In this document: positions 748 through 22,804 of the stretch, in pieces
Numbering within the stretch: the stretch's first letter is position 1
Layout of the letters: each line of letters starts with the position of its first letter
Source of the DNA: Baffinella frigidus
Taxonomy: Eukaryota; Cryptophyceae; Cryptomonadales; Baffinellaceae
Direction: 5' to 3'
DNA: 23,114 nucleotides
Assembly (NCBI GenBank): GCA_026770585.1
Contig: MU647111.1
Coordinates: forward strand, 79,656 to 102,769
Program-made: the position numbers and the translations under genes
The notes under the pieces: generated by a model
Databases searched by the model: none
Seen by the model: only the letters and a program-made list of their open reading frames with translations
What the model was told of the DNA's origin: nothing

Positions 748-810
748 GTGGCTCACGTTCCGGATCATGCTCGGATCGGGGCTGATCAAGATCCGCGGCG
801 ACTCCTGCTG
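748..810 (+). CDS. LMF exon 1 of window
   Basis: It encodes WLTFRIMLGSGLIKIRGD followed by SC and two bases of a Trp codon. This is the most conserved LMF motif. The acceptor is TGTCCAG|G. The donor is GC (CTG|GCAAAC): only this junction restores the Trp codon and the following RDLTAM, and reading on meets TAA within the heptamer array. The upstream boundary could be earlier because the frame stays open. Confidence 0.85.
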
Positions 811-3800
811 GCAAACCCTAAACCCTAAACCCTAAACCCTAAACCCTAAACCCCAAACCCTAAACCCTAAACCCCAAACCCTAAACCCTAAACCCTAAAC
901 CCTAAACCCTAAACCTGAAACCAGGAGGGACCTAACTGCCATGTGCTTCCACTATGAGACCCAGCCTGTGCCGAACCCCCTCTCGTGGTTTCTCCACCAT
1001 ACACCGGTACGGGTGCCCCCCACCCCATCTTCCCCGAGGTGACGCGTGGTGAAGCAACACATGCCGGGTCCAGAATCTAATGTTGATCGGTTCTGGGTGC
1101 CGGAGTTTGACCAGGGTGTTGATAACCTGATAGCGGGTTGTACGAGGTGCGTGATCCCCTTGAGGATGACACGCTTTGGTTAAGTCGACGGTTTTTGCTG
1201 TGCAAGGATGGCAGGTCCTTGCACAGCAAAAACAGTCGACTTACCCAAAGGTAACAACGTCGGCAGGGTGGTCATAACGAGGTGCAGCATCCTCCTGAGC
1301 ATCGCGATGCTCTTGAGGATGACACGCTTTGGAGAGTCGACCGGAGTTTGCTGTGCAAGGATGGCAGGGTGGTAACAACGTCGGCAGGGTGGTAATAAGG
1401 CAGGGTGGTCATAACGAGGTGCAGCATACTCCTGGGCTGCGCTGGTTGCACAAACTCGAGACGAGAGGAAGTGTTGATGTTCTCGAGACGAGAGGGAGGG
1501 TTGATGTTTTTCGAGACGCCAAGTTGATCAGTACGGTTCAGGTTGCCAGATTTTGAAAGCGTCAGAAACCTGGTAGCGGCTGATAAGGGGTGTTTCGTCA
1601 TCTTGAAACCCTGAAGCCCTACACCCCGAGCAGCTGTGGTTCCACAAGATCGAGACGGCCGGCAACCACGTCGTCGAGCTGGTACCCCAAACCCCAAACC
1701 CTAAACCCCAAACCTCAAACTCTAAACCCTAAACCCTGAACCCTAAACTCTAAACCCTGAACCCAAAGTTTTGAACACTAAACCCTACACCCAAAACCCC
1801 AAAACCCAAACCATGAACCCCAAACCCTAAATCCTTAATTCTGAACCCTAAACCTTAAAACTTGAACCCTCACCCCTAAACGCTAAACCCTAAAACCGAA
1901 AACCGAAACCCGAAAACTTGAATTCTAAACCCTACATCCTGAACCCTCAACCCTCAACCCTAAATCTTAAGCCCCAAACCCTAAACCCTAAACCTTAAAC
2001 CCTGAACCCTGAACCCTGAACCCTGATTCTCAAATTCTCAGCGCTGAAACCTAAACACCCAACCCTAAACCCTGAACCCTAAACCCTAAACGCTGACCGC
2101 TGAACCCTGAACCCCGAACCGTAAACCCTGAACCCCAAACCCTGAACCCTGAACCCTGAACCCTGAACCCTGAACCCCAAACCCTAAATCCTGAACCCTT
2201 AACCCGAAACCCTGAAACCTAAACCCTAAACCCTGAGATCAAAACCCTCGACCCGAAACCCTAAACCCTAAAATCTAAATCGCAATCGTCAAACTCTATA
2301 TCCTGGACCCAAAACCCTAAACCCAAAACACCAAACCCTAAACCCTAAACCCTAAACCCAAAACACCAAACACTCCGCCCTAATCTTTGAACCCTGCACC
2401 CTACACCCTAAACCCTGAACCCTAACCCCTGAAATCCTGAACACTAAACCCTAAACCCTAAACCCTAAACCCTAAACCCTAAACCCTAAACCCTAAACCC
2501 TAAACACTAAACACTAAACCCCAAACCCTAGCCACTAAATCTGAATCCATAAGCCCTACAATCTGAACCCCACACCTGAAACCCTAAACCCTAAACCCTA
2601 AACTTTAAACCCTAAACTTTAAACCCTAAACCCTAAACCCTCAAACCTAAAACCTAAAACCTAAAACCTAAACCCCTCAACCCTAAATCTTAATCCCTAA
2701 GCCCTACATCCTGAACCCTGAACCCTAAGCCTGAAGCTCAAACCCTAAACCCTAAACCCTAGATCGTAATCCATGAAACCTACATCCTGATCCCAAAACC
2801 CTGAACCTAGAACACCCAACCCTCACCCTAAACCCTTAACCCCACACCCTGAAACCTAAACCCTAAACCTTGAATTCCAAACCCCAAACCCTAAATCCTC
2901 AACCCTAAACCCTGAAATCTCAACACTAAACCCTAAACCCTGAACCCTGAACCCTGAACCCTGAAACCTGAACCCTAAACCCTGAACCCCAAACCCTACA
3001 CCCTAAACCCTGAACCCTGAACCCTGAACCCCAAACCCTGAACCCTTCCTAAACCCTGAAACCTTAACTCTAAACCCTTAACCCTCGACCCTAAACCTTA
3101 AACTTTAGCTCTTAACCCTAAATCCTAACCCCTAAGCCCTAAAACCTAAACCCTCAATCGCAATCGTCCAACTGTTTATCCTGGACTCAAACCCCTAAAC
3201 CCAAAACACCAGACCCTCAACCATAAACCCTAAACTCAAAACACTAAACACTCGTCCCTAATCTTTAAACCCTAAATCCTGAACCCTAAACCCAAAACCC
3301 AAAACCCAAAACCCTAAACCCTGAAACCCTAATCCCTGAAACCCTAAACCCTAAACCCTAAACCCTAAACCCTAAACCCTAAACCTAAAACCCCAAACCC
3401 TAAACCCTAAACCTTAGCCCCTAAATCTTAATCCATACGCCCTACATCCTGAACCCCAAACCTCAAACCCTGAACCCTAAACACTGAACCCTAAACCCTA
3501 AACCTTAATCCCTAAAACCCTAAAACCCTAATCCCTAAAACCCTAAAACCCAATCCCTAAATCCCAAACTCCAATCACGCCCGTTTGCTGTCTCCGCCTT
3601 AGTCAATCTGAGCTGTTCATTAACTATTTTCAATTAGGACTCCGTACTCACGCTCCAGCACAAAGAGCATCTAACAACATTCAATGAGGAGTTCCGATCA
3701 ACAGAGGCAGAGCGAGGCGTCGGTCCACAACACTTGAGCCATCCCCCCCCGAGGCCCATAACCTACCACCCAGCACTCTCGAGGCTCACAACCTCTCCAT

Positions 3801-6800
3801 GGTTCTCCCTCCACACCTCCAGATGACGCAGACGGCAGCCGCTTCCTGACAAACGCACAATTGCTCCGCCTCACACCTTGCATCAAGGGAATACATGGTG
3901 GCCATCTTGGTTTTGGTCCTTGATATTCGCGGACAGTGTATCCCTTTGAGAGACGTGACAACTGCCCCGTGCATGACCTGGTTGCCTGGGCCTGCCCCAC
4001 ACAGCGGGCTACGAAGGGATTTTCGGGCACTCAGTGCCCGAGTTTCCGTCACCTTATCCGTAGGAACCCCCCTATGCCCCTACGGGTTTCGTACCGTAGG
4101 GTCCTAGGTCTTATCGCTTAAGGGTTATTCAGAAATCCCTTGGACGTCCGCTGTGTGGCCAGGTGCAGCTTCACCCTCTGTCCTCGGCTAATCCGTCAAC
4201 GCGTTCTTTTGCGTTTTGATGGCACCACTCGATGCAGGTCACGTCAGCTCATCTGGCCAAACTCTTCAAACAAACAACAATGTCTGACAAAGTTCCTCGT
4301 TCGGACGCAGATTCTACCGTTGTTCCTGATATCGCCATTCCGGTCGCTTCTTCTCATTGGCGGCTCCGCCCAAATCCTCTTCCAGGCAAGACCCTGACTT
4401 GTACTTGTAAGGCGTACACATCTATTGTAGACTGGTGTATTCAGCTATTGTGGATCTCATGTTTGGTTCAAATCAGAAACGCTTGGGACTGTGAACAAAA
4501 GGGACTATAATGGGTGCATGTTGGAACTGTGTGTACCAGGCAACCTTTCACATGTATTGTAGACTAGTGTATGACATGTATTGTAGACTAGTGTATGAAC
4601 ATTCTGTAGATGTCCTGTTTGAAACATCAGAAACGCTTGATACCAGAGACTATAATAGGTGGATGGTTTGTTTTTGTACAAAGGATGGCAACCTTGCAAC
4701 CCTCCGAGACACCCAAGTTCCACATGTGCGAACGCTCGACCCCATTTTTGGCAAAATCGGGCGTTGAGAACCCCCCTACGTCTCTGGACTGATTCGAGGC
4801 ATGTTGGCTGCGAAGGCTGCCCGGTTGGGTTATCGCTCCGCTGGAAAACTGTGCCCGGAAGAGTCTTTCAGACGATGAACCATAAGGATTTTCGGACTCT
4901 AGCTCTGTCTGATTTTCGGACTCTAGCTCTGTCTGATTTTCGGACTCTAGCTCTGTCTGATTTTCGGACTCTAGCTCTGTCTGATTTTCGGACTCTAGCT
5001 CTGTCTCAGTCTTTCGGACTCTAGCTCAGTCTCAGTCTATTTGGGCTTACCAACCGCTCCAAAGTTGACGAATTTGTACCGCAACCCCGCGTGTCAACTT
5101 GAGAATAGACGGCCGACCCGAGTGAGGCAGAGCTAGGGACTCTCGGCCATTCGGTCTCGAAGAGGGAAGATCAACTCGAGAGCTTCGCCGCGCAGCTGCG
5201 TGAATCTTTTCAACTTGCATGTATCATCTGTCGTAGTTCCTCTCCCTAAACCATAAACCATAAACCATAAACCAGAAACCATAAACCATAAACCATAAAC
5301 CATAAACCATAAACCATAAACCATAAAACATAAACCATGGACCATAAACCATAAACCATCAACCAACCATAAACCAGAAACCATAAACCCTAAACCCTGC
5401 ACCCTAAACTCTAAACCCTAAGCCCTCAACCCCAACGCCCTCGCGGTTGGCAGGTGGTGTTGATCCTCTCGGGCAACCTGGCGTTCCTCAACTGGCTGAC
5501 AATCCTCCCAGCCATCCTCTGGTCCCCGTCCTCACGCCACAGTCTTGGAAAGGGTTCGCGGAAAGCCAACTCCTTCTCAAGGCAGTGGTTTTCAAAAGTC
5601 AACCAACGTATCCAGATACGTTCTAAATAAATCAACCCCCTCCTGCACTCTGGCGTGGCCCCATCAGCCACTCGGTGGACTACGGATTCTTCAAGACCCC
5701 TGGAATCCGGGGATTTCGAGACCAACTTGGTACCGGGAAATGGCTAACATACTTGAAATTGCCATTCTCTGGTAACCATCCCCAGCCTCACGGTCGTTTT
5801 TGGTGCTTGGTTCGTATGGAGATGAGCACCAGGTGGCGGTGGTATTGCCGACCCGGGTCAGGAGCCGATCCAAAAAAGGACCGTGCCCACTGTGGGATTG
5901 GAGCCCAGGGTTGGACTGCGGAGTACCCCCGGAATCCGGGGGTTGCGTGACCAAGTTTGTACCGGGATAGGGCTGAAAAAGGTGAAATTGGCCGAGCTTT
6001 CTTGAAGCATGGAAAGCTAGTAGTCCACCGTGTGGATCCCACAACCAGCCCGAATGCCACCGCGTGGATCCCACAACCAGCCCGAATGCCACCGCGTGGA
6101 TCCCACAACCAGCCCGAATGCCACCGCGTGGATCCCACAACCAGCCCATTCTCACAACCAGCCCATTCGTGAGAATGTTGCGTGAGCCACGCCAGGTCCC
6201 ACTGAGTATTTGTCTCTACTTGTTTCTCCGGATTAGCCCCACAGATGTGTATCAGCAGCACGTTACCAGTAATGCAAACCGTCGCGTGCTGAAAGTTTCA
6301 CTTATGCCCTGGCGTGGTTCACTGCCAGGAAGAGAGGAGAACAGCCTCGCCTTCCCACACGAGGCTACCTATGCGAACAGAATAAATGTCGATTGTAAAC
6401 GTGTGTAGTAATTTTCAGATGAAAAACAGCGATTTTACACAGGTCCAACCGCTCAGCGGGCGGAAACGTGATCATTTGCCCACAAAACTTTAAAAGCCCG
6501 TTTTATCCTGTTCGCCTGGGTAGCCTCGTGTGGTCCTCACGTGCTCATCCGTGTGAGAGGCACACGCATTCCGCATCTCGTATCCCGGTTCTGCAGGACC
6601 ACCCTCTCTCTGTCAGGGAACGCTGGACACAGTAGCGTGCTGGAAATCGTTGCAAATCCAGCGATTAAGTGTGTCATGCTGAGGGTGGGATCCACGCTTG
6701 GCGGAGGACAGGAACACATTTCCAAATTCGAAATGACCAGAGCCCCAATTCACGGTTGACTGCAACGTGAACCTCAGCTGAGTTGGTCGAGGTTTCCGGT

Positions 6801-9800
6801 GGAACATGATCGAGATGGCTTCTCTGGAGACAAGCCCCTCTCCATGTAGAAGTCACTCCGAATACTCCCACAGGGGGCGTGTCCCCAGAGCTTCCCCCTC
6901 GAGGACGGTTCACATGAGAAACCTGACATCTTTTCCCGGCCTCTTTTCAGCCTGGACGACGCGTTCCTCTCCCCGCTCTTCTCAGCAGCCTCCCTCCTGC
7001 AAGTCGCCGCACTCAACGCGATCCCCCTGCCGCTCAACCCCGCGACGGCGGTACCTCCCCGCATCCAGCTGCCCGCCGTGGCCACGCCAGGGCACACGTG
7101 ATAATTTCAGAACGCGGCGTTTCGCTTTAAAAAGGTTTCGTGGTACAGACTCCACCTTGTTGCGGCGCCGGGCTGTTGACCTTTGGCGTGATTCTGATTC
7201 CGATTTGTGAGAAACAGACGGATAATGAAGATGAGGTGAATTGTGACAGTGACGTGGCGTGGGTCTGGCGGTTCTGGCGTGGAATTGTGAAGTGTCGTGG
7301 TTCTGGCGTGGCAGGTTCGGGAGGCGATCAACCTTGCCCTCGCGTCCCTGGTCGTCTTCCTTTCGATTCCGGTCACGATCCCACCCCCGTTGGGTCACGA
7401 TCCCACGCCCGTTGACTAACCTCGACTTGTTTGCACTAGGACAGTGACCAAACCGTGCAGACTGAGTACCAGGAAACCCTCGGACGAGTCAACATCCGAG
7501 GGTCTGTTATTCCTGTCCCGCCTCATTCCCGCATGGCCTGTGTTTGGTGCGTAAACCCTAAACCCTAAACCCTAAACCCTAAACTCTCAACCCTAAACCC
7601 TAAACCCTAAACCCTAAACCCTAAACCCTAAACTCTCAACCCTAAACCCTGAACCCTAAACCAGCTTGCCTTTGCTCGAGTTTGAAGAGGGTGCAGGCCC
7701 TGTTCTCCAGCAGTAGAGCGCTGAGTGTCGTCTTTAAGACCTTATAACCATCTAGGGCTTGGCTCTCGATTCTCACAGAAACCGAATTCCCAGCCGGTAG
7801 AGCGGTGTTCGCATCTGGATGCCACGAAACGAAAGCAATCAAACAACCCCCAACGTTGATAGGTTGGTACCAGAAGCGTCAACTTTGGAATTATTGTATC
7901 GTTTCAGTGTATCAAACCGTTGCGAAAACCGCGCTACAGATTGTGCTCAAAACCCTCTCTTCTCTCAAACATGTGAGTGGGTGTAGGTGTTGCATTTTCA
8001 GGGGTTAGGGTTGATGGTTTATGGTCTAGAGTTGATGGTTGATGGTTGACGGTTGATGGTTGATGGTTGACGGTTGATGGTTGATGGTTGATGGTGTACG
8101 GTTGGTGACAGAAGAAAAGGGCATCAGGTGGTGCGGAACATCCTCTCAAAAACGCAAGTGATGAACACCTCCTTCGACGCATGGCGCCTCGTCAACACGT
8201 ACCCGCGCCCGGGGGGGGAAGTCCCTTAGCTTTTAAAGGCCCAGGGTTTTAAGACTTGTAGAGGGCTATTATAGACTCCCTGTACAAATTTTCGACAATG
8301 ACTAGAGCCATTTGTTTTCTAAGGGACTTCCCCCCCCGGGCGCGGCACCCCTTTTGCTCGATTCTAGGAGACTCCTTTAGTCAAAGAGATATAATAATAT
8401 CTTTTTGCTCGATTTTAGGAGGCTCACATAGCCAAAAAGATGTAGATATCTTGTTGCTCGATCCTAGGAAACTCCTATAGCCAAAAAGATATAAACATGT
8501 TTTTGCTCGATTCTAGAAGACTCCTCTAGCCAAAAAGACATAAATTTCTTTTCATTTGATGCTAGGTGGCTCCTGTAACCAAAAACATATGAAATTTGGC
8601 TCGATCCTAGGAGACTCTGATAGACAAAAAAAATCAACCTGTTTGCTCTGCGGGAAATATTTTTTTTGCACAAAAAGTTTCGAAATGTTTCGACAATTTT
8701 CAGATGGACGCCCAGCTGGCCTCGGCAGCACGTTGACGAGGCCGTGCGTTCGCCCCGTCTTGTCCATACTTGTGTTTCCGACAACCACGGCTTGTCCCGG
8801 TCGCTGCCGCTCCCTATGGCGAACACTGTTGATATTAACAATTGGTGGCAGGCGTTATCAGACACACACGCGACACGGCCGCACCGGGCCAGCCATGCAC
8901 ATGGCCAAACCACGTGCACTTGAAGCATCGGCGGCCAACTTCTCTGCACACCGGTTTGACAGGTACGGAGCGTTTGGATCGATCACACGAGAGCGCGAAG
9001 AGGTCATCCTCCAGGTCTCGCCCAAGCCTTGATCCCCAATCCTTCAACCCCAACCCCAACCCCCACCCGGTGATGTAACACCTCTCGCACTCCACACCAC
9101 ACACACTCCCGTTTCAAATGCCTCGCTCCCCCGTGTCGACGACATTTTCCTCTGGATGCAACACCTCTCAGACAGAGAGAGCGCCGTGTTTTTATCTCAG
9201 AAAACGAGTTCTAAAACTCGTTTTCTTAAGTCAATCCCCCTACAAATTCGTCAACTTATTCTTTACTCTCCGCATAAGTTGACAAATTTATAGGGGAATT
9301 GACTCAAGAAAACGAGTTTTAGAACTCGTTTTCTGAGATATCTTTGATGCCCTCTGTTATGAGGTTGCGCTGTGTTACACCCCTACCCTTAATATGGACT
9401 CGACAGTCCCGATGGTATCCATCATGGGGTGTCCACCCTAGAATGGATTCCACTCATAATATGGATATAGAAAGCTTAACCCGAGGCGGTTCACCAGAGG
9501 GTGGGGAGACTGTAGAACCCGTTGACGATTGGTTATATCTCCACGTAGGAGGTGGAGATAGAATCCATCCGGAACAATTTCGTAAGAGCAGCCGACACGG
9601 GGTACAGTAAGTAGCACAATGCGTAAGGCATGTGCGGCGCTGACGCTGGTCGTTTGGCAATAAATTACCAATCTCTAGCTCTGTCTCACCTGGATTTGGG
9701 CTCGCCATTGTTTCGCCACCCCCCGAAAATTCACAGGTAAATTTTGACACCCCCCATGAAATTTACCTGTGAAATTTCATCGGGGGCGAAATAATGGCGA

Positions 9801-12800
9801 GCCCAAATTGAAGTGGGACAGAGCTAGAGCTAGAATCTCTCATTGAAGATTGGAGTTGGGCAGGGCACGCGCGACGACCTGCGGCGAACGGCACCGGAAG
9901 ATGTGGAATGGCAGGAGTACGGCTTCAAGGTCAACCCCAAACCCCAAACCCCAAACCCGAACCCCCAAACCCCAAACCCCCCAACCCTAACCCCAAACCC
10001 CCAAACCCAAAACCCGAAACTCGAAAACGCATACCAGGTGAAGCCAGGGGACGTGACAAAGAGGCCGGGCGTGATCTCCCCGTACCACTACCGCCTTGAC
10101 TGGCTCATGTCGCACCCCACCCCACCGTCTACCTCTGCCGAAGTTCGGAACATGACAAGGCAGTCACCTCGGACAGTTGGCTTCGGCGTCCGCGTGACCG
10201 GTCACGCGGGCGCTCAAGAGCTGCCCGTACCACTACCGCCTTGACTGGCTCATGTCGCACCCCACCCCACCGGTGCTTTCTCTGCAGTCCTTTCTACGGA
10301 AGGGCGTGTCGTTGGGCTATGTTGGGAGCATTTAAAACCTAAAGGACCTAAAGGATCTACCTCTGCCGAAGTTCATCTGGGCTCATCATTGTACAACTTA
10401 ATCTCCATACAAGTATTAATTAATTGCTTTCTGGCAACGAAAATTACTACACGATTTGCTTATACAAGTAATAGTAGAGCATTTGTGTAGTAAATTTCGT
10501 TGCGCCAAAAGCAATTAATTAATACTTCTATGGAGATCAAACTGTGCCTAAGTTCATCTGGGCTCCTCGTCACGCACATTTAGATGCTTTTTTTTCCTGG
10601 AGCACTTGTACGCAGACCTGATCTCGAAGAATCGCATGAGGTGCCTAGATTAACTACGGATTTGTAGCACACACCCAGCTTGTCAACATGAGAAGAGTCC
10701 GTGACCCCGACTGATGCAGAAGAAGGAATCACAAGCGAGAAAGCCTGTTCCCGCGGGTGTCTGCTTCTCGCGAAGGCACGCCACGTTTCCTCTCCACCGC
10801 TCAATCTCAATCACCTTTCGCGATTCCGCGTGCGCTACCACGGCGAAAACAAGTCGCTGAGGCGAGCTTTCTTTGTCGCGTCGCAGGTGGTTTCTGCCGT
10901 TTGGGGACTCGCGACGAAACCCCTGGTTCTACCACCTTATCGGTGATTCCCCCCGCCTGATCACACGGGTAGAAACCTGTTCGAGTTCCGAGTTATTGGT
11001 CGCTTCCTGGATATTCTGGGGCCTTTTGCATCTACGCCAGGGCACACGTGAAAATTCCACACGGAACGTTTCGTAAAAAAATAATGCACTTGACACCATT
11101 GAGTGTGTCCTCCGCCGGTTGGTTATTCACTTTTGACGTGATTCCCGGGCTCAAAGTCGCGAAATCAACTTTAGCATTTATGATGTGTACGGAAATCTTT
11201 TAGATCGAGGGGTTTATGAAATTCCGATTTGTGTTGAACAAGTCACCTGGCGTGATATATACCGTACACACCGAGAAATCGGAGCAGGTTCCCGTTGAGA
11301 ATATCAGAGCAGCGGTGTGTAGGTGGAGGTTGTGTGACAGAATGCTGTGGTTAAGAGCTGACGTCGTCATTCCGGCGTGACCCTAATCCCGGCGGTCCGT
11401 CGGGTGCTACCATATGCAATACCGTAGGATGATGCGGAATGCCGCAATTAGGTTGACGCATAATTTTATCTCGTCGACCAATAACGACGGTGTGCGAACA
11501 AAGGAAAACTGGTGGTCAATGACACGGGCACGATGTCGCTGCCAACAACCCCTTCCACGAAGGCCTTGCACGCCATCACGCGGTGGGTAACGCCGAATAG
11601 TTGGTTTCGATCCGGAATAAACGCACGTTTGGTGAATGCAGGCAAGCTGCTGGTGAACGACGCGGGCGCCACGTCGCTCATCGCGAACAACCCCTTCGAA
11701 GGCGGGGACCCGCCCAAGTTCATCCGAGCGCAACTCTACAGGTTTGAACGCGACTGGGTTTGAATTCTACAGGTTTGAACTCTATAGGGTTTGAACTCTA
11801 TGGGTTTGAACTCTAGGGGGTTTGAACTCTACTGGGTTCGCACTCTCAAGGGGTTGACCTCTAGAGGTTCGAAGCTTAGCACTGGCACGTGCTCTGGCAA
11901 GTGCAGCTTTGTCAGCGCAGTTGTGCCCAGAGGAGAAGCTGCGTCGAGAGAAGCTCTCTGTCTTGGGGAGTTCTTTTGGCTTGCAGGGTTAGAAGTGTGC
12001 AGCTTCGGTATCGGATGCAGCCAGAATGATTTCAGTCGGTGGGTGCGTTTCTTTTCGTAGAGGTTACGTGCGTTGTGTTTGAGGACGGGAAGGAGGATTC
12101 TAGCTCTGCCTCACTCGGGCCGGCTGACTATTTTCAAATTGACATGCTGGGTGTGCGGTCCGATTCCGTCAACTTTGGAGCGGGAAAGAGCCCGGGATCA
12201 CCAAATTGATGAGCCACCAAATTGGTGAGCCGAAATAGACTGGGCCAGAAGTAGGGATTGACGGCTCGAAACGAAGCAGGTACGAGTACACGAAGCCTGG
12301 GTCAGAGGAGGCAAAACGCGGCGATTGGTGGACGCGCACCTTCATCCGGGTCTGTCCCCTGCCTCCCCCATCACTCTTGAGCCTCCTCCATTGCAGCATG
12401 GGTAGCTCGCGGCATTGGATTGCGGTACACTGCTACCTCGCTCGTGAGCAGCCGCTCCCCCCCCTAGAACCACCATAGGGCCCTAGGTATAGGCCTACTG
12501 TAGGGTCCTAGGGGGGTGCGGCTCCTTATGAGCGAGGTCACCCTGATTTGAGGAGTTATGCTTTCTCCGACACTATCTCGGCCCTACACTCTTCACCCTG
12601 AAAACTGCAACTCGTACAACAAGATGTCGTGTGCACTAGACATGTCTTGTGCCCAAAAGAGAGAGGACAGTGTGTGTGTTTTCGGATCGAAACTGACATG
12701 GCCACCACGAATTCCCTGAAACGATGATGATTCGGTGCAGTGCTTCCATACCCCTGATTGGCACACCCTGAGTGGGGTATTCAAAACCCCGGAGGCTCCC

Positions 12801-13119
12801 CTTCCCCCGGGGGCTGGAGACCCTCTCCCTCTCCTGCCTCCTCAAAATCCAGGACACGCACCTCCACTATGGAAGTCATATGCTCCTATGCATGGGCCTA
12901 CTGCAGGACCCTGGGGCGGTGCGTGCCCTTAATTGTGAGCAACCATTATCCCTGACTTGGCGAGCGGGTTAATCCTGACCCGCAGGAGTGGCATTGTTGA
13001 ATAAAGTGTGAACCGCGCGGTGGCAGTCGTTCGTGGAAGCGCAGAGCTTCGAAGACCTCCGCCCCGCCTACCGCCAGTTCGGCTGGCAGCTCCCACCTTC
13101 CAAGGCCAAGCCGCAGTAG
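748..13119 (+). CDS. Lipase maturation factor family protein, 5'-partial, 15 exons
   Basis: Lipase maturation factors are multispanning ER membrane proteins. In animals they assist folding and dimerisation of secreted lipases; the role in protists is not established. I joined 748-810, 925-1006, 1634-1681, 4311-4385, 5454-5521, 6951-7050, 7315-7371, 8128-8198, 8963-9014, 9864-9929, 10038-10108, 10887-10942, 11642-11741, 12280-12349 and 13027-13119. The splice phases agree at every junction and give 356 codons plus TAG. Family motifs appear in the expected order: LGSGLIKIRGD, HYETQPVPNPLSWF, SGNLAFLNWLTILPA, VMNTSFD, YGAFGSIT, PYHYRLDWLM, NPWFYHL, NNPF, RAQLYRYEYT, WWTR and YRQFGW. Animal LMF proteins are roughly 550-700 residues, so the N-terminal membrane segments must be encoded upstream of the window. 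Twelve introns are GT-AG and two are GC-AG. The family call is strong; exon 1 start and exon 6 end are the least certain boundaries. Confidence 0.92.
811..924 (+). repeat. Intron 1: telomere-like (CCCTAAA)n, GC-AG
   Basis: This 114-nt intron is almost wholly CCCTAAA heptamers with a few CCCCAAA variants. It runs from the GC of GCAAACCC to the AG of CTGAAACCAG. There is no pyrimidine tract. The sense strand carries the C-rich telomere strand. Confidence 0.85.
925..1006 (+). CDS. LMF exon 2 of window
   Basis: It completes the split Trp and reads RDLTAMCFHYETQPVPNPLS, then WFLHHTP. This matches the LMF motif in which a Trp-Arg-Asp-Leu is followed by a HYETQP segment. Acceptor AACCAG|G, donor CCG|GTACGG. 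It ends in phase 0. Confidence 0.92.
1130..1436 (+). repeat. Degenerate direct repeats in intron 2
   Basis: Two related blocks, about 1146-1300 and 1268-1425, share GAGGATGACACGCTTTGG, AGTCGAC, GCTGTGCAAGGATGGCAGG and ACGAGGTGCAGCAT. Parts (for example GGTAACAACGTCGGCAGGGTGG) weakly resemble the second half of exon 3, so these may be older exon-derived copies. A long hairpin at 1174-1250 lies in the first block. Confidence 0.6.
1174..1250. repeat. Long hairpin in intron 2
   Basis: Arms of about 35 bp (CTTTGGTTAAGTCGAC... and ...GTCGACTTACCCAAAG) flank the loop TGGCAGG. The stem includes GTTTTTGCTGTGCAAGGA paired with its complement and has only two or three mismatches. It looks like an inverted duplication of local sequence, because the left arm alone recurs at about 1327-1363. 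Confidence 0.85.
1420..1520 (+). pseudogene. Degenerate copy of LMF exon 3
   Basis: Positions 1425-1487 read HTPGLRWLHKLETRGSVDVL, related to exon 3 (LWFHKIETAGNHVVEL). A further partial repeat of the VDVLETRGR part follows to about 1520. The copy also carries HTP before the Leu, which matches the last residues of exon 2, as if it derived from a version with the exon 2/3 boundary joined. No stop occurs within it. Confidence 0.6.
1634..1681 (+). CDS. LMF exon 3 of window
   Basis: It reads LWFHKIETAGNHVVEL, the LMF segment normally seen as WFHKL...NHFVELV. Acceptor CGAGCAG|C and donor CTG|GTACCC, both phase 0. An AG three bases upstream would add one Gln, so the start may be 1631. Confidence 0.85.
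1682..3571 (+). repeat. 1.9-kb degenerate telomere-like array in intron 3
   Basis: The array starts at the donor GTACCCC and runs as heptamers CCCTAAA with many variants (CCCTGAA, CCCCAAA, CCTTAAA, CCCTCAA, CCCAAAA). Near-perfect runs occur at about 2451-2515 and 3346-3385. The decay suggests an old array that has been partly re-expanded in places. It is not a chromosome end, since exons of the same gene lie on both sides. Confidence 0.95.
3572..3996. other. Unassigned intron 3 sequence
   Basis: I recognise no exon or repeat family between the telomere-like array and the foldback element at 3997. It contains a small local duplication (CGAGGCCCATAACCTACCA and CGAGGCTCACAACCTCTCCA near 3750-3800). 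Confidence 0.4.
3997..4158. mobile_element. CCACACAGCGG-family foldback element, copy 1
   Basis: The ends CCACACAGCGGGCTACGAAG and its relative ending CCGCTGTGTGG form terminal inverted repeats. Internal marks are CGGGCACTCAGTGCCCG, ACGGTAGG-type palindromes and TAAGGGTTATTCA. The copy at 19298-19467 carries the same sequence in inverted orientation. It is non-coding. Confidence 0.85.
4311..4385 (+). CDS. LMF exon 4 of window
   Basis: It encodes 25 residues including ILPLFLISPFRSLLLIGGSA followed by QILFQ. This is a hydrophobic, probably membrane-spanning segment matching the LMF stretch VVPFF...AGGxxQxLFQ. Acceptor GACGCAG|A. The donor is GC (TTCCAG|GCAAGA), required because a TGA follows in frame at 4395. 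Confidence 0.9.
4422..4700. repeat. Degenerate tandem duplication in intron 4
   Basis: Blocks at about 4422-4545 and 4576-4700 share TATTGTAGACT(A/G)GTGTAT, ATCAGAAACGCTTG, GACTATAAT(A/G)GGTG and GGCAACCTT in the same order. Within this, a 24-bp unit ACATGTATTGTAGACTAGTG (+TATG) is exactly duplicated at 4550-4573 and 4574-4597. Confidence 0.8.
4887..5035. repeat. 24-bp minisatellite, 5 exact units plus partials
   Basis: The unit GATTTTCGGACTCTAGCTCT (+GTCT) is repeated exactly at 4887, 4911, 4935, 4959 and 4983, followed by diverged partial units. The unit contains CTAGCTCTGTCT, which is the terminal sequence of the adjacent foldback element at 5021-5136. Confidence 0.95.
5021..5136. mobile_element. 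CTAGCTCTG-family foldback element, copy 1
   Basis: The ends are CTAGCTCAGTCTCA and TGAGGCAGAGCTAG. The interior CTCCAAAGTTGACGAATTTG, TACCGC and GTGTCAACTTGAGA is shared with copies at 12100-12255 (inverted) and 18903-19039, and with fragments near 10660-10715 and 20070-20090. It is non-coding. Confidence 0.8.
5245..5430 (+). repeat. Telomere-like variant array (CCATAAA)n in intron 4
   Basis: About 25 heptamers, mostly CCATAAA grading to CCCTAAA, run toward the acceptor of exon 5, ending some 25 nt before it. The period of 7 is kept although the unit differs from the canonical one. Confidence 0.92.
5454..5521 (+). CDS. LMF exon 5 of window
   Basis: It reads VVLILSGNLAFLNWLTILPA followed by IL and the first two bases of a Cys codon. 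SGNxxFLNWLTI is a diagnostic LMF membrane segment. Acceptor GGTTGGCAG|G, donor CTG|GTCCCC. The Cys codon is completed by the C opening exon 6. Confidence 0.93.
5702..5993. repeat. 63-bp direct repeat pair in intron 5
   Basis: GGAATCCGGGG...GACCAA.TT.GTACCGGGA.A.GGCT...GAAATTG occurs at 5702-5764 and again, diverged, at 5931-5993. The sequence between carries no recognised gene. Confidence 0.8.
6032..6170. repeat. 32-bp minisatellite in intron 5
   Basis: The unit GTGGATCCCACAACCAGCCC (+GAATGCCACCGC) is exact at 6032, 6064 and 6096; a fourth unit from 6128 diverges and its CACAACCAGCCCATTC part is duplicated. Each unit carries a GGATCC. Confidence 0.95.
6182..6322. mobile_element. CACGCCAGG-family foldback element, copy 1
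   Basis: The terminal inverted repeats are GTGAGCCACGCCAGG and GCCCTGGCGTGGTTCAC. The interior is non-coding. Copies with the same terminal motif occur at 7082-7261 and 11035-11252. Confidence 0.65.
6356..6532. mobile_element. Foldback element with ends CACACGAGGCTACC
   Basis: The left end 6356-6387 and the right end 6501-6532 form 32-bp inverted repeats with four or five mismatches (CACACGAGGCTACCTATGCG against CACACGAGGCTACCCAGGCG). The interior is A/T-rich and contains GTGTAGTAATTTTCAG, similar to the element at 74-286. Confidence 0.85.
6533..6950. other. Unassigned 3' part of intron 5
   Basis: I recognise no exon, repeat family or RNA gene here. It ends with a pyrimidine-rich acceptor CCTCTTTTCAG, one of the few classical polypyrimidine tracts in this gene. 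Confidence 0.4.
6951..7050 (+). CDS. LMF exon 6 of window
   Basis: After the split Cys it reads LDDAFLSPLFSAASLLQVAA, then LNAIPLPLNPATA. This is the LMF CFDDxFLxPLF segment and the start of a variable loop. I place the donor at GCG|GTACCT because exon 7 needs phase 0. The frame stays open to a TGA at 7098, so a later GC donor (for example GTG|GCCACG) is possible. Confidence 0.8.
7082..7261. mobile_element. CACGCCAGG-family element, copy 2
   Basis: It begins CACGCCAGGGCACACGTGA and ends near GTGACGTGGCGTG. It shares the beginning, the internal TTCCGATTTGTG and the TGGCGTG end with 11035-11252. It sits in intron 6, and more TTCTGGCGTGG motifs continue up to the exon 7 acceptor. Confidence 0.6.
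7315..7371 (+). CDS. LMF exon 7 of window
   Basis: Nineteen codons read VREAINLALASLVVFLSIP, a predicted membrane helix before the conserved VVRN segment of exon 8. Acceptor GTGGCAG|G, donor CCG|GTCACG, phase 0 on both sides. The acceptor lies within a repeated TGGCGTGGCAG context. Confidence 0.85.
7553..7662 (+). repeat. Telomere-like array in intron 7
   Basis: About 15 units of CCCTAAA, with a few CTCTCAA and CCCTGAA variants, on the sense strand of the LMF gene. Confidence 0.95.
7663..8002. other. Unassigned intron 7 sequence
   Basis: I see no exon or repeat family between the two heptamer arrays of intron 7. Confidence 0.4.
8003..8104 (-). repeat. Heptamer array of opposite orientation, (GGTTGAT)n
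   Basis: It begins GGGTTAGGGTTGATGG and continues as GGTTGAT/GGTTGAC heptamers, the G-rich strand of a telomere-like variant. It ends 24 nt before the exon 8 acceptor. Confidence 0.9.
8128..8198 (+). CDS. LMF exon 8 of window
   Basis: It reads VVRNILSKTQVMNTSFDAWR then LVN and AC. The motif QVMNTSFD..RLVNT is highly characteristic of the LMF family. Acceptor GCATCAG|G, donor AAC AC|GTACCC. The Thr codon is completed by the G that opens exon 9. Confidence 0.94.
8204..8344. mobile_element. Foldback element abutting the exon 8 donor
   Basis: The ends CGCGCCCGGGGGGGGAAGTC and the complementary GACTTCCCCCCCGGGCGCG extend through CCCTTAG to about 25-bp arms. The left end lies only five bases downstream of the exon 8/intron 8 junction. 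It is non-coding. Confidence 0.88.
8351..8645. repeat. About 50-bp minisatellite, six diverged units
   Basis: Units starting near 8351, 8401, 8451, 8500, 8549 and 8597 share TTTTGCTCGATTCTAGGAGA, CTCCTATAGCCAAAAAGATA and an A/T-rich spacer. Each unit contains a small hairpin TAGGAGACTCCTA. Between-unit divergence is high, so the array is not recent. Confidence 0.9.
8963..9014 (+). CDS. LMF exon 9 of window
   Basis: After the split Thr it reads YGAFGSITREREEVILQ, the signature LMF motif NTYGAFGSITxxRxEVIxxGT. Acceptor TTTGACAG|G, donor CTCCAG|GTCTCG. It ends in phase 0, and exon 10 supplies the following GT. Confidence 0.95.
9036..9068 (+). repeat. Short (CCCCAA)n tract at the 5' end of intron 9
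   Basis: Units of CCCCAAC/CAACCCC follow the donor within about 20 nt. The tract resembles the CCCCAAA variant that fills intron 10. Confidence 0.7.
9193..9340. mobile_element. Foldback element with ends TATCTCAGAAAACGAGTT
   Basis: Near-perfect inverted repeats of about 64 bp at both ends enclose a short loop. The arms are themselves partly palindromic (AACGAGTTCTAAAACTCGTT). The terminal TA on both sides could be a TA target duplication. It lies in intron 9. Confidence 0.9.
9675..9827. mobile_element. Foldback element with ends CTAGCTCTGTC, long arms
   Basis: The arms contain CTAGCTCTGTCTCACCTGGA, TTTGGGCTCGCCATT and GAAATTTACCTGTGAA in matching inverted order. The terminal sequence is the same as in the 5021-5136 family, but the interior differs. 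It ends 36 nt before the exon 10 acceptor. Confidence 0.85.
9864..9929 (+). CDS. LMF exon 10 of window
   Basis: It encodes 22 residues, GTRDDLRRTAPEDVEWQEYG followed by FK. The LMF consensus here is a Gly-Thr, then a variable part, then a W.EYEFK motif. Acceptor GTTGGGCAG|G, donor TTCAAG|GTCAAC, both phase 0. Confidence 0.93.
9930..10037 (+). repeat. Intron 10: (CCCCAAA)n-type telomere-like intron
   Basis: The 108-nt intron runs from GTCAACCCC to CATACCAG and is made of CCCCAAA, CCCCGAA and CCCAAAA heptamer variants. Its length is a multiple of three and it has no in-frame stop, so retention would add a Pro/Asn/Thr-rich 36-residue insert. LMF proteins pass directly from EYxFK to a KPGD motif, which supports splicing. 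Confidence 0.88.
10038..10108 (+). CDS. LMF exon 11 of window
   Basis: It reads VKPGDVTKRPGVISPYHYRL then DWL and AT. KPGD..RRP..V.P...RLDWxMW is a core LMF motif. Acceptor ATACCAG|G, donor CTCAT|GTCGCA. The split Met codon is completed by exon 12, giving RLDWLMWF. Confidence 0.95.
10224..10272 (+). pseudogene. 49-bp exact copy of the exon 11 end in intron 11
   Basis: Positions 10079-10127 recur exactly, 145 bp downstream. The copy covers the coding part PYHYRLDWLM, the donor and the first 19 intron bases. It cannot serve as an exon without an acceptor, so it is a recent partial duplication. Confidence 0.93.
10273..10355 (+). mobile_element. 83-bp insertion of the CCTAAAGGA-tailed family
   Basis: The first copy of the duplicated block reads CACCG then TCTACCTCTGCCGAAGTTC (10128-10146). 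In the second copy these two parts are separated by 83 bp running from GTGCTTTCTCTGCAG to CCTAAAGGA. The first copy is therefore an empty-site reference and this is a precise insertion, with at most one base duplicated. Relatives lie at 16509-17690. Confidence 0.8.
10385..10549. mobile_element. Foldback element flanked by 16-bp direct repeats
   Basis: The long A/T-rich arms contain ATCTCCATACAAGTATTAAT, TAATTGCTTT and AACGAAAATTACTACAC with their complements. The direct repeat AAGTTCATCTGGGCTC occurs immediately on both sides, at 10369-10384 and 10550-10565. Confidence 0.88.
10566..10886. other. 3' part of intron 11 with a CTAGCTCTG-family fragment
   Basis: Around 10660-10715 the sequence TTGTAGC.CACACCCAGC.TGTCAA recalls the interior of the CTAGCTCTG family. 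Otherwise I recognise nothing up to the acceptor TCGCAG. Confidence 0.4.
10887..10942 (+). CDS. LMF exon 12 of window
   Basis: It completes the Met and reads WFLPFGDSRRNPWFYHLI, then one base of a Gly codon. The LMF motif is WFxxF.....PWF..L..KLL. Acceptor GTCGCAG|G, donor ATCG|GTGATT. Exon 13 completes the Gly with GC. Confidence 0.93.
11035..11252. mobile_element. CACGCCAGG-family element, copy 3
   Basis: It starts ACGCCAGGGCACACGTGA, as at 7082, and ends near TTCCGATTTGTG...CACCTGGCGTG. The shared ends and shared internal segment define the family. It lies in intron 12. Confidence 0.6.
11253..11503. other. Unassigned intron 12 sequence
   Basis: I recognise no exon or repeat between the element at 11035 and the exon 13 fossil. 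Confidence 0.35.
11504..11564 (+). pseudogene. Degenerate copy of LMF exon 13
   Basis: After ACAAAG|G it reads KLVVNDTGTMSL in frame, matching KLLVNDAGATSL of exon 13, then loses the frame by a 4-nt deletion before the AACAACCCCTTC part. The acceptor context is conserved in the copy. It is a pseudo-exon 138 nt upstream of the real one. Confidence 0.85.
11642..11741 (+). CDS. LMF exon 13 of window
   Basis: It completes the Gly and reads KLLVNDAGATSLIANNPFEG, then GDPPKFIRAQLY and two bases of Arg. KLLxxDxxxxxLLxxNPFxxxPPxxxRAxLYxY is a strong LMF motif. Acceptor GAATGCAG|G, donor TACAG|GTTTGA. The frame would run on only seven codons, to a TGA at 11761. Confidence 0.94.
11742..11870 (+). repeat. 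(GGGTTTGAACTCTA)n array at the 5' end of intron 13
   Basis: Seven or eight units of about 14-16 nt (GGGTTTGAACTCTA and variants) begin at the donor itself, which reads GTTTGAACG. The unit resembles two degenerate heptamers of the G-rich telomere-like type, although that origin is inference. Confidence 0.85.
12100..12255. mobile_element. CTAGCTCTG-family foldback element, inverted copy
   Basis: It begins CTAGCTCTGCCTCACTCGGG and continues through TCAAATTGACATGCTGGGTG and GTCAACTTTGGAGCGG, the reverse complement of the 5021-5136 interior. An extra block around GATGAGCCACCAAATTGGTG interrupts the far arm. It ends about 24 nt before the exon 14 acceptor. Confidence 0.75.
12280..12349 (+). CDS. 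LMF exon 14 of window
   Basis: It completes the Arg and reads YEYTKPGSEEAKRGDWWTRT followed by FIR. The joined sequence RAQLYRYEYT...WWTR fits the LMF YRYxFT...WWxR motif. Acceptor GAAGCAG|G, donor CGG|GTCTGT, phase 0 end. Confidence 0.94.
12429..12545. mobile_element. TACAGGGG-family 120-bp foldback element, in intron 14
   Basis: The ends are GCTACCTCGCTCGTGAG and ATGAGCGAGGTCACCC, diverged from the family ends. The core CCTAG.ACCACCATAGGGCC, CTAGGTATAGGCCTAC and TGTAGGGTCCTAGGGGGG is diagnostic. Confidence 0.85.
12546..13026. other. 3' part of intron 14
   Basis: About 12780-12960 contains CTACTGCAGGACCCTGGGGC and AATTGTGAGCAACCAT, plausibly a decayed TACAGGGG-family element. No further exon was recognised between exons 14 and 15. 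Confidence 0.4.
13027..13119 (+). CDS. LMF terminal exon with stop
   Basis: It reads SFVEAQSFEDLRPAYRQFGW then QLPPSKAKPQ and TAG. LMF proteins end with a segment of the form LxxFLxxxGW, here DLRPAYRQFGW, followed by a short tail. Acceptor GGTGGCAG|T. A TGA lies in frame just upstream at about 13010, which supports an acceptor here. Confidence 0.88.
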   Translation, partial: SFVEAQSFEDLRPAYRQFGWQLPPSKAKPQ

Positions 13120-13284: not shown

Positions 13285-13349
13285 GACTACTCCCCGCCCC
13301 GCCTGCCGGCAGTTTGCCTGACAGCTCCTGCCTTCCAAGGGAAAGAAGT
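13285..13349 (+). pseudogene. Degenerate copy of the LMF terminal exon
   Basis: CGCCCCGCCTGCCGGCAGTT and CAGCTCCTGCCTTCCAAGGG parallel the terminal exon, giving RPACRQFA, a stop, then QLLPSKGK. It lies about 220 bp downstream of the real exon and runs straight into the element at 13350. Confidence 0.8.
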
Positions 13350-13664
13350 CCACACAGCGGGATACGAAGGAATTTCTTGAATAACCCATAGAGCCAATCT
13401 GGTAGGACTTGGCCAAAGCGAACTTCGAAGTTGCGAGATTGCGAACTTCTAGATGGACCGTAATTATTACTAAACCCCGATTTGTACTGCAAAATTTGAA
13501 TTTAAAACACTACATGTCCAAAAGAGTCCATCTAGAAGTTCGCAATCTCGCTAGTTCGAAGTTCGCTCTGGCCAAGTCCTGACAGATTGGCTCTAAGTGA
13601 GTAGCCCAAAGGACTCTACGATAGGCCATCTCTGTAGAGACATAGGGGGTTTCCTACGGATAAC
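13350..13664. mobile_element. CCACACAGCGG-family element split by a nested insertion
   Basis: The left part 13350-13390 (CCACACAGCGGGATACGAAG, then GAATAACCCATA) and the right part from 13594 (TAAGTGAGTAG...TACGATAGG...TACGGATAA) align with the copy at 19298-19467. A 203-bp element separates them. The far right end is decayed. Confidence 0.8.
13391..13593. mobile_element. Nested foldback element flanked by TA
   Basis: The ends are GAGCCAATCTGGTAGGACTT and its near-complement ending AGATTGGCTC. The arms continue through GCGAACTT.GAAGTT, GCGAGATTGCGAACTTCTAG and ATGGA. It is bounded by TA at 13389-13390 and 13594-13595, and the uninterrupted relative reads CCCCTAAGCG at this point. This fits a Tc1/mariner-type TA target duplication. 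Confidence 0.92.
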
Positions 13665-13927: not shown

Positions 13928-14007
13928 ACATGCACGGTGTGAACTGTCAATACTAGCACGAGCGTCCTTGGGGGTCGAGACGGTATGGTGTGCACTCAAT
14001 TGCAGTT

Positions 14008-14145
14008 GAGGGTTCAGGGTTCAGGGTTCAGGGTTCAGAGTATATGTTTTAGGGCCAACGTTTATGGTTCATGGTCCATGGTTCATGGTTGAAGGTTTAT
14101 TTTTTGTTTTACGTTGAAGGTTTATTTTTTGTTTTTGCTACCAGA
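14008..14145 (-). repeat. Telomere-like G-rich variants and a T-rich duplication
   Basis: GGGTTCA heptamers from 14008 grade into GGTTCAT/GGTCCAT units. Then GAAGGTTTATTTTTTGTTTT occurs twice (14091 and 14122). This lies outside the LMF gene. Confidence 0.85.
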
Positions 14146-14628: not shown

Positions 14629-14670
14629 TTACACCCTACACCCTACACCCTACACCCTACACCCTACATC
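14629..14670 (+). repeat. (CCCTACA)n short array
   Basis: Five or six heptamers of the CCCTACA variant. Confidence 0.92.
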
Positions 14671-14770
14671 CTGCACTCCGAAGAGATAAACGTGGGTTGA
14701 TTACGGATCGAAAGCAACATGGCCACGATGCATCCCGCAACGCCGACGCCTCCCGAGTGCCAGTACTGGA

Positions 14771-15555: not shown

Positions 15556-15945
15556 TCAGAAGAGGTCGAGGTCGCCGAGGGAACCCGTGCTGAAGGACGA
15601 CCCGAGGGAGCCAGCAGACACGACGCCCTTGATCGCGCCCTGCGCCGACGCCCAAGCCGGTGGAGACAGATCCGTAGGAGCCCCGGCGGATGAAGCGTCG
15701 GGAACGAAGGAGGGGAACGCCGCGAGATTTTGCTGGCCGGCGTACTCGTGCTCGAGCTGGCCCAGGAGCACTTCATCCGACGACGAGAGCATCCACGGAA
15801 GCACAGGCGGCACGGTCGCCGCGGTGCGCCCCGCGCAGCCCCAACGCGACGCGCCGCAGGTCTCGTTGTTGGGGAGCGCCGTGGCACCCACTGCGAGTGA
15901 CAGGGCGGCGAGAAAGAGAGCGCCGAGCCTCGTGGAAGCAACCAT
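15556..15945 (-). CDS. Predicted small secreted protein, 129 residues
   Basis: The minus-strand frame from ATG at 15945 to TGA at 15556 encodes 129 residues. It opens with a textbook signal peptide: Arg at residue 6, the hydrophobic core LGALFLAALSLAVGA, and a likely cleavage after ATA near residue 23. The mature part starts LPNNETC with a possible N-glycosylation site (NET) and has only two cysteines. It is rich in Ala, Ser, Gly and Pro, with an acidic end DLDLF. I recognise no family. Codons are strongly G/C-ending, as in the LMF exons. An AG acceptor (ATTTCAG at 15977-15971) lies 25 nt before the ATG and could receive a spliced leader or a 5' exon. It is convergent with the LMF gene. The large plus-strand ORF opposite it looks like its shadow. 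Confidence 0.65.
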   Translation of the reverse strand: MVASTRLGALFLAALSLAVGATALPNNETCGASRWGCAGRTAATVPPVLPWMLSSSDEVLLGQLEHEYAGQQNLAAFPSFVPDASSAGAPTDLSPPAWASAQGAIKGVVSAGSLGSSFSTGSLGDLDLF

Positions 15946-16192
15946 ATTGTCGTTTGTGATTTTTTGGCTGCTGAAATCGAATCGTCACTCGAAGGAACCA
16001 GCCAATGGCTCCAACGCCGCGTGTACAAGGAACCGCTGTGGTACAAACGTAAAATGGTCTTGTCCCGTATAACTAACAACAGGTGCCCTTGGAGCCGTTC
16101 ATGCACAAACTGATTCAAGTTGAGCGCGAGGGTGGAAGCAAACAGGTTATTTAGGAGGGTGGGGTAGCAGGCGTTTTGTGTGGTAACATGAT
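15946..16192. other. Upstream region of the secreted-protein gene
   Basis: Apart from the possible acceptor at 15971-15977 I see no TATA-like or other recognisable promoter element, and no repeat. Confidence 0.35.
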
Positions 16193-19467: not shown

Positions 19468-19798
19468 TAGTCCGGTGATGCCACGGGTTTGGAAAAACGG
19501 CGAATCCTCCCCTACGAATCATTAGATTCAGAGATCTGAGGTGGCTTCGCCCCTGGGTGTGCAGATGATGCGTGCTCGTGTGGCAGCGCAGGTCCGCAAG
19601 ACCCCCCCCCCCCCGTGTAGAGAGACCTCTTCTCTAGAGAAGTAGGTTTGATGTTGCTGGTGAGAAGCGTTTGAGGGTGCTTGCGAAGAAGGGTGCTGCA
19701 CCGAGAAGCTGAAGGCTTCTCGGTAGGGCCGTACAATAGAAACCTCTCGTGGTTTGAGGGAGTGGATGTTTTTTTCTTTTCGAGTATTTCGTATGGCC
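19468..19798. other. Unassigned sequence with a C tract and hairpin
   Basis: A run of about 13-14 C lies near 19600-19614. CCGAGAAGCTGAAGGCTTCT (+CGG) forms a hairpin near 19700. No gene was recognised. Confidence 0.4.
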
Positions 19799-19994
19799 TC
19801 AACCCTAAACCCTAAACCTTTAACCCTAAACCCTAAACCCTAAACCCTAAACCCTAAACCCTCAACCCTCGACCCTAAACTCCGAACCATAAAACCTAAA
19901 ACCCTAAACCCTCCACCCTAAACCCTAAACCCTAAACCCTAAACCCTAAACCCTAAACCCTAAACCCTAAACCCCTAAACCCTAAACCCTAAAC
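19799..19994 (+). repeat. Telomere-like (CCCTAAA)n array, intergenic
   Basis: About 28 heptamers, the second half nearly perfect, some with one-base slips (CCCCTAAA). Unique sequence continues on both sides, so it is interstitial. Confidence 0.95.
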
Positions 19995-20275
19995 CGAGTC
20001 AAGCCGATGTACTTGCAAGTTTTTCTGGCCGAGACTGGAAATGCCTCCAGCTCCAACCTGGTTGGTGCCAAAAATTGACGAATTGGTACGACCTGTCTCT
20101 CATCAAACCCTCAAGTGTCTGTACCGCACCATCACAGGCAAGGATCGTGTGTGACGGTCCCTCGCTCAATGAGTGGTCACTGTTGCTCTCAACGCCGGTG
20201 TTTCTTCCCCAGAAGAGAGAGATGATTGTATCGAATTGATGGCGAAAGAAGCTCACTCAAAACCGGGGTTTGAAA
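19995..20275. other. Unassigned sequence
   Basis: AAAATTGACGAATTGGTACG near 20070 is a fragment of the CTAGCTCTG family. Nothing else was recognised. Confidence 0.4.
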
Positions 20276-20392
20276 CAGGGGTACCTCGCTCATAAGAAAC
20301 TGCCCCCCCCAGGACCACCGTAGGGCCCTAGGCATAGGGCTGCTGTAGGGTCCTAGGGGGAGGCACTTTCTCATGAGCGAGGTACCCCTGTA
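20276..20392. mobile_element. TACAGGGG-family element
   Basis: The ends CAGGGGTACCTCGCTCATAA and TCATGAGCGAGGTACCCCTG are near-perfect. The core is AGGACCACCGTAGGGCCCTA, GGCATAGGGCTGCTGTAGGG, TCCTAGGGGG. Confidence 0.95.
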
Positions 20393-22305: not shown

Positions 22306-22374
22306 CACCCAGGCAAGTTGTGCTCTTGCTGAGCCGGACAGTACCGTGTGTTGTATCAAAGAAACATTTACTGG

Positions 22375-22495
22375 TACAGGGGTACCTCGCTCATACCAAA
22401 CTGCCCCCCCCTAAGGACCACCGTAGGGCCCTCGGCATAGGCCTACTGTAGGGTCCTCGGGGGAGGTGGTTTGTTATGAGCGAGGTACCCCTGTA
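22375..22495. mobile_element. TACAGGGG-family element, near-perfect copy
   Basis: TACAGGGGTACCTCGCTCAT at the left and ATGAGCGAGGTACCCCTGTA at the right are exact complements over 20 bp. The core is as in the other copies. Confidence 0.96.
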
Positions 22496-22539
22496 CAGTG
22501 CAAGTTACACCATTGCTGATCCGAATCGTCCGTATCCCG

Positions 22540-22625: not shown

Positions 22626-22683
22626 TGCACGTGCCCGTCACCTTCGGCAGGGGGTGCCTCAGCGAACTGGAGCTCTTTTCAAC

Positions 22684-22804
22684 TACAGGGGTACCTCGCT
22701 CATAAGAAACGCCCACCCCCCTAGGACCACCATAGGGCCCTACGCATAGGCTTACTGTAGGGTCCTAGGCGGATGCGGTTTCTTATGAACGAGGTACCCC
22801 TATA
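22684..22804. mobile_element. TACAGGGG-family element
   Basis: TACAGGGGTACCTCGCTCAT at the left and TTATGAACGAGGTACCCCTA at the right, with the core AGGACCACCATAGGGCCCTA and GGCTTACTGTAGGGTCCTAG. Confidence 0.95.

Follow-up and report, generated by a model that had tools for sequence, protein, structure and literature searches.

How new introns originate is an old and open question, to which introners, introns made by transposons, are the best-known recent answer. The question is raised by a gene for a lipase maturation factor (LMF1) in the cryptophyte Baffinella frigidus, several introns of which carry or consist of telomere-like heptamer repeats: were these introns built from the repeat, or did the repeat fill introns that already existed? 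The gene lies at positions 749-13119 on the + strand of a 23,114-nt stretch of DNA (contig MU647111.1, positions 79,656 to 102,769; hereafter the window, to which coordinates refer unless another stretch is named) and comprises 15 exons and 14 introns. The introns in question probably represent a recurrent kind of spliceosomal intron, made up entirely or for the most part of degenerate arrays of telomere-type heptamers that have expanded in place, with the C-rich strand more often in the sense orientation; expansion inside introns is likelier than birth of introns from arrays.

Heptamer arrays are present in five of the 14 LMF1 introns (1, 3, 4, 7 and 10) and absent from the other nine. Introns 1 and 10, the two shortest of the gene, are arrays from edge to edge: intron 1 (811-924, 114 nt, GC-AG) is 98% covered by CCCTAAA-type 14-mers and intron 10 (9930-10037, 108 nt, GT-AG) is 80% covered by an array with CCCCAAA as its commonest unit, both exactly as delimited in a preliminary description made from the letters of the window. 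Its claim of 1.9 kb of repeat in intron 3 (1682-4310, 2,629 nt, GT-AG) also held, in that a degenerate array at 1684-3569 starts 2 nt into the intron and runs for 1,886 nt, though it is just 71% regular; the array share of the intron is 60% and the final 741 nt are non-array. The shorter arrays that it had placed in introns 4, 7 and 9 were found in the first two but not in the third. Intron 4 (4386-5453, GC-AG) has a + strand array at 5243-5432 (15% of intron length), close to its acceptor, and intron 7 (7372-8127) holds both a sense CCCTAAA array at 7549-7663 (15%) and an antisense degenerate array at 7997-8100, which reads GGTTGAT on the + strand; intron 9 (9015-9863) has 0% heptamer array coverage and just a short C-rich stretch. 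The commonest unit differs between arrays, being CCCTAAA in introns 1, 3 and 7, CCATAAA in intron 4, CCCCAAA in intron 10 and, read in reverse, CCATCAA in the second array of intron 7. Because a single telomerase product would not give differing units, whereas local expansion of variant units would, these differences favor expansion, and the arrays probably expand in place.

The exons that border these introns all lie on the + strand, at 749-810, 925-1006, 1634-1681, 4311-4385 and 5454-5521 (exons 1-5), 6951-7050, 7315-7371, 8128-8198, 8963-9014 and 9864-9929 (exons 6-10), and 10038-10108, 10887-10942, 11642-11741, 12280-12349 and 13027-13119, the last ending at the stop (exons 11-15). The model may be incomplete at its 5' end, with exon numbering counted from 749. 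Joined, the exons form a single continuous frame of 356 codons plus the stop (357 in all). Judged by its sequence, the gene is a member of the LMF1 lipase maturation factor family, as both Pfam domains are matched by the first-built partial model: PF06762 with E = 1.2e-52 (178.8 bits, cut-off 27) and the C-terminal domain PF25179 with E = 1e-20 (74.6 bits, cut-off 34.2), the latter also matching part of exon 13 alone (7.5e-7, under the curated cut-off). The top-scoring relative among the 120 matches listed is a protein of the cryptophyte Hemiselmis andersenii, with 57% identity.

All 14 introns carry spliceosomal splice letters (12 GT-AG, with GC-AG at introns 1 and 4), and their removal restores the conserved frame. 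Evidence that an edge-to-edge array is removed comes from the public protein P0116, which derives from a contig of 965 nt and is identical to LMF1 residues 165-356 (192 of 192) and corresponds to the spliced exons 8-15; its source contig is presumably complementary DNA. Introns 8-14, 4,413 nt in total and the only ones within its reach, are all absent from P0116, and at the seam of intron 10 EYGFK is joined directly to VKPGD. Intron 10 is therefore removed. Left unspliced, this intron would amount to 36 stop-free in-frame codons and could be retained as coding sequence. For exons 1-7 no near-identical public fragment was found among the best 120 of 183 matches, and removal of intron 1 is therefore supported by frame and homology: unspliced, it would introduce two in-frame stops, and conserved sequence spans its seam in the alignment with the Hemiselmis protein.

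The array sequence itself offers a simple reason for the position of the splice sites. Neither (CCCTAAA)n nor (CCCCAAA)n contains GT or AG, and (TTTAGGG)n contains both in every unit. Intron 1 accordingly has no GT, its sole GC being the donor and its sole AG the acceptor, and in intron 10 the sole GT and the sole AG are its own splice sites. The splice sites of both introns thus stand at the array edges because the array strand has none inside, and their edge position is on its own no proof of birth in an exon. The donor of intron 3 likewise stands at an array edge. Pooled over 19 array introns (range 83-624 nt), GT occurs at 0.55 and AG at 1.44 per 100 nt; with introns 1, 3 and 10 set aside, the remaining eleven LMF1 introns have 6.28 and 5.67 per 100 nt. 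The suggestion in the preliminary description that the C-rich sense strand helps splicing therefore stands mainly through the lack of GT and AG; its second part, a supply of branch-point-like CTAA in every unit, is not general, since CTAA, with 12 copies in intron 1, has a single copy in intron 10. Placement near an edge extends to partly filled introns: the array of intron 3 starts 2 nt from the intron start (random-placement probability 0.004) and that of intron 4 stops 21 nt short of the acceptor (0.025), the sense array of intron 7 being unremarkable against random placement.

LMF1 is not the only gene of this genome with array introns. The 21-mer (CCCTAAA)3 has 53,120 matches in the 382-Mb assembly (27,288 + 25,832, overlapping ones counted), as against 27 (14 + 13) for its backwards-read control, and a genome pattern search places the arrays within contigs. 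In a Rab1 gene the array intron lies at 3321-3919 of stretch L028, and the Ras domain (2.2e-67) runs unbroken over the seams. Array introns also separate exons of an aldo/keto reductase (L045; PF00248 spans the seam at 1e-8) and a P4-ATPase-like exon pair (L062), all 12 structure matches of the latter at E ≤ 1 being phospholipid ATPases (best E 0.0074). A BCCIP gene carries an internal sense array in an intron, with its domain (PF13862, 2e-41) crossing the seams, and an ADH-like gene in L029 (PF08240, 4e-5) carries antisense arrays. Further array introns were placed in a gene of L027 by reading frame, its joined exons matching no Pfam family, and in TPR-like (L029) and RCC1-like (L056) genes with sub-threshold Pfam matches. 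By eye, short exons flanked on both sides by array-type sequence were seen in L059, L062, L065, L067, L068 and L072. A test of whether an array, taken from edge to edge, would fit as an intron with coding-like sequence on either side was applied to 94 arrays (190,326 nt), with a codon table derived from the window and LMF1 intron 10 counted among the positives; sense exceeded antisense by 9 v 3 at a score of 4, 7 v 1 at 5 and 5 v 0 at 6. Heptamers equally common and unoriented in introns and between genes would, according to the preliminary description, have spoken against its proposal. Arrays lie outside LMF1 as well, and in both orientations; those fitting edge to edge as introns show this sense bias at scores of at least 4.

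Array ends across the genome point the same way. Ends of the form CCCTAAACCCTAAACCAG, in which the array stops at AG, number 622 (319 + 303; backwards control 0), and the total for ends with two changed letters (CCCTAAACCCTAAACCDV) is 2,954, with an AG share of 21% among nine classes. In a tally by eye of the first 100 listed ends (contigs 1-7), AG accounted for 21, AA 6, AC 9, GA 1, GC 7, GG 2, TG 7 and TA plus TC 47, which puts AG about eightfold above an independence estimate of about 2.5; as neighboring sites are non-independent, no p-value is given. Coding-like sequence follows 14 of 28 AG ends and 12 of 84 other array ends (Fisher p 4.4e-4), the former having been required to show two exact units and the latter only one. 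The 28 ends, all on the + strand, were taken as the first eight listed and then the next 20 in order, one site being skipped as adjoining the previous one. Five of the eight were coding-like (p 0.004 alone, and 0.04 when six AG ends from the sample that supplied the 84 others are added), one of the eight sites having been known before retrieval to have a GT start nearby; among the 20 there were nine (Mann-Whitney p 0.0012 for these alone). Both intron ends could be placed by eye for 12 of the 28, including L071, which was kept without proof from its frame; L057, L063 and L068 were excluded for an ambiguous donor, and 13 others were not placed.

Several observations weigh against C-rich sense arrays as a recurrent, splice-inert kind of intron. 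Absence of AG is not strict, the Rab1 array intron having 29 internal AG, and antisense arrays also lie within genes: in intron 7 of LMF1, in the ADH-like gene of L029 and, as judged by eye, behind an exon in L055. At a score of 3 the edge-to-edge test is even, at 13 sense v 12 antisense. The unequal requirement for exact units bears on the AG-end comparison, as do the six AG ends from the sample that supplied the 84 others, none of which was coding-like at score 4; at the other side of the array, GT was not enriched at in-register 5' edges (14 among the first 100 DT sites). Of the 18 contig-1 stretches of 10 kb that were examined, 17 had been picked for + strand arrays. Most array introns outside LMF1 are putative placements from reading frame and splice letters, the joined exons of L027, L060 and L061 matching no Pfam family and those of the TPR-like and RCC1-like genes falling below the curated cut-offs.

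Against expansion in place stands the view, put forward in the preliminary description for break repair within exons, that arrays give rise to introns: telomere-type repeat would be joined into an exon at a double-strand break, by telomerase or through end joining of capped ends, at times duplicating a short piece of the flanking exon, and would be spliced at once since it holds no internal splice sites. The hardly detectable non-array remnant in introns 1 and 10, together with their shortness, is what this view would lead one to expect. To place the introns, LMF1 was aligned to the human protein P0032, which we take to be full length at 567 residues. The numbering agreed at all 15 residues checked among those named in PMC7068683 and PMC9820378, and human intron positions, including c.897/898, are those of Table 3 in the latter. 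Introns 1, 3, 7 and 10 lie where human LMF1 has no intron, as birth would predict; such positions are, however, held by 11 of the 14 introns (introns 6 and 13 without call), and seven of the nine array-free introns are among them, so position does not single out the array introns. Moreover, the array-bearing intron 4 corresponds to human LMF1 intron 6 in both position and phase, and at least one array therefore sits in an old intron; shared positions with unrelated content, which the preliminary description had taken to argue against its proposal, were thus found in part. Resemblance between the intron start and the start of the next exon spoke for birth in a first set, with 38 of 81 letters matching in nine array introns (shuffled mean 28.8, p 0.0078; the Rab1 ends were one base off, and corrected ends give the same 7/9 similarity). 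It was not repeated in a second batch of ten further array introns (p 0.49; all 19, p 0.015), L045 and L052 belonging to the first batch and the L027 intron near 4349-4486 being left out for a boundary mismatch. With introns 1 and 10 set aside, the same test on the other 12 introns of LMF1 gave p 0.61, and direct repeats at the splice junctions of all 14 gave p 0.047 for identity and 0.62 for run length. Individual cases seen by eye, namely GTACC repeated at either end in L045, a repeat of about 20 nt flanking the array in L071 and an exon piece joined directly to an array in L027, fit birth, but target duplication at array introns is unproven. No intron-lacking copy of the gene was found either, all 12 matches of the LMF1 protein in the 382-Mb assembly (1,364 contigs) falling inside the window. 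Addition of telomere repeat at breaks in exons is thus not established, and we hold it to be a possible but doubtful origin for these introns; the wider proposal, that telomere-type repeat was joined into exons, at times along with a brief exon duplication, and has been a source of hundreds of new spliceosomal introns, is correspondingly tentative.

Further from either view, the arrays could be passive litter, satellites scattered through a repeat-rich genome and lying in introns as anywhere, with no preference of strand or edge. The 53,120 exact 21-mers, the arrays outside LMF1, the hairpin repeats that also occur in LMF1 introns and the repeat content given in part of PMC9756366 (41.1% of a 534.5-Mb Baffinella assembly) would all suit such a background, but the roughly eightfold excess of AG at array ends, the more frequent coding-like sequence after those ends and the mostly sense orientation of edge-to-edge introns at scores of at least 4 make it improbable. 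That the arrays are mobile elements bringing their own splice sites is very unlikely: the lengths of the 19 array introns are not alike, as those of a family would be, even though AAACCAG recurs at acceptors (in LMF1 intron 1, L027 and L029 among unselected cases, the AG-end cases being selected) and a 114-nt stretch of intron 7 (7551-7664, GTAAACC..AAACCAG) matches intron 1 at 104 of 114 positions with shared ends G[CT]AAACC..AAACCAG. A shift by one unit is nearly as identical (0.907 vs 0.912), so the match may be just the period, and the idea that a single cassette had been copied into introns 1 and 7 was rejected for want of contrast with this control. Long repeats are hard to assemble, and misassembled arrays or exons drawn from more than one gene would mimic such introns; the 192 identical residues of P0116 across exons 8-15 and the seam-crossing Pfam domains of LMF1, Rab1, BCCIP and the aldo/keto reductase render an artefact extremely improbable.

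Expansion in place would proceed from seeds of telomere-type repeat spread across the genome, which slippage or unequal exchange would expand and homogenize, often within introns, until the intron was filled. C-rich sense arrays would be favored by selection against cryptic splice sites, as the array would act as splice-inert filler with no competing site inside the intron and donor and acceptor at its edges only; the opposite strand would offer one GT and one AG per unit. An array inserted in an exon may nevertheless have been the starting point of certain introns, 1 and 10 for example, but this is not established. The surroundings of the exons bear traces of local copying. Decayed partial copies were found nearby by blastn for three of the 15 LMF1 exons (exon 1 upstream at 626-654, exon 11 in the next intron at 10224-10253 and exon 15 past the stop at 13294-13340) and for three of six exons of other genes: Rab1 exon 4 (L028 3462-3517, 56 nt, 89%) and an exon of L027 (6458-6502, 45 nt, 93%), each copy followed by array, and an ADH-like exon in four copies (L029 8362-8976). 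The 15 LMF1 exons had no blastn match in 18 other stretches. Such copies could arise through unequal exchange between arrays or through slippage.

Other features of the window complete the description. Outside LMF1, a CCCTAAA array lies at 19796-19997 (+), and downstream of the gene there are a short antisense array of CCCTGAA type at 14005-14038 (-) and a short CCCTACA-type array at 14630-14676 (+). A 16-nt tandem array at 11732-11873 runs from within exon 13 into intron 13, where the exon-intron border is apparently duplicated. Of 41 inverted-repeat pairs (25 listed), several have long and nearly perfect arms and a common GTACCTCGCTCAT motif, and resemble short non-autonomous transposons; examples at 20275-20391, 22374-22496, 22680-22808, 9193-9340 and 13389-13595 lie within and outside introns. 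A minus-strand gene at 15556-15984 encodes 129 residues with a signal-like start, 95% identical to B. frigidus T484DRAFT_1976472 and without a Pfam domain. Pfam searches of 20 open frames downstream of LMF1 gave one sub-threshold match only, and Rfam gave none at gathering thresholds. Among IMG/VR viral contigs, four pattern matches to LMF1 relatives were obtained, none of which was confirmed, and the hairpin motif had no match. CCCTAAA was found in six IMG/VR contigs, five of which (L001, L002, L004, L005 and L006) have short tandem arrays between alike flanks; among the 50 matches listed, these five match the window only in the repeat itself.

The significance of these introns is that a different repeat kind builds entire introns, in several genes of a single genome, and that its tolerance has a simple reason in the sequence, one strand lacking either splice dinucleotide. 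Since the arrays are easily found by pattern, intron presence and absence can be scored between strains and species. An open-access search, most subscription papers lying outside it, returned no description of telomere-like arrays as introns. Tandem duplication of a segment carrying AGGT reportedly creates introns as well (Hellsten et al., 2011). Some array introns are reminiscent of this route in having similar letters at the donor and the next exon, as is the array spanning exon 13 and intron 13; they differ in consisting mainly of telomere-type repeat rather than copied exon, and the similarity signal was not repeated.

In the available part of its description (PMC9756366), the nuclear genome of Baffinella CCMP2293 has a GC content of 53.9%, against 52.2% in the window, and the main text has no words starting with "intron" or "telomer". 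Words on telomeres (telomer), tandem repeats or cryptophytes were likewise absent from a word search of the introner paper by Gozashti et al. 2022 (PMC9860276). The introners of Amoebophrya, for which inverted repeats are described (PMC7789003), are similar in that one kind of repeat forms introns and abuts the splice sites; the arrays here differ in being tandem heptamers of variable length. TTTAGGG telomeres are reported for plants, algae and dinoflagellates (PMC6410037 and PMC7789003), and in the present genome arrays of this type lie inside contigs. The closest parallel in repeat content is to interstitial telomeric sequences (ITS), reviewed in PMC6410037, the available sections of which link short ITS to double-strand-break repair and include artificial ITS placed in introns. 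Like the arrays described here, ITS are telomere-type repeats within chromosomes, degenerate and expandable; in B. frigidus, by contrast, natural arrays form whole introns, with the splice sites at the array edges.

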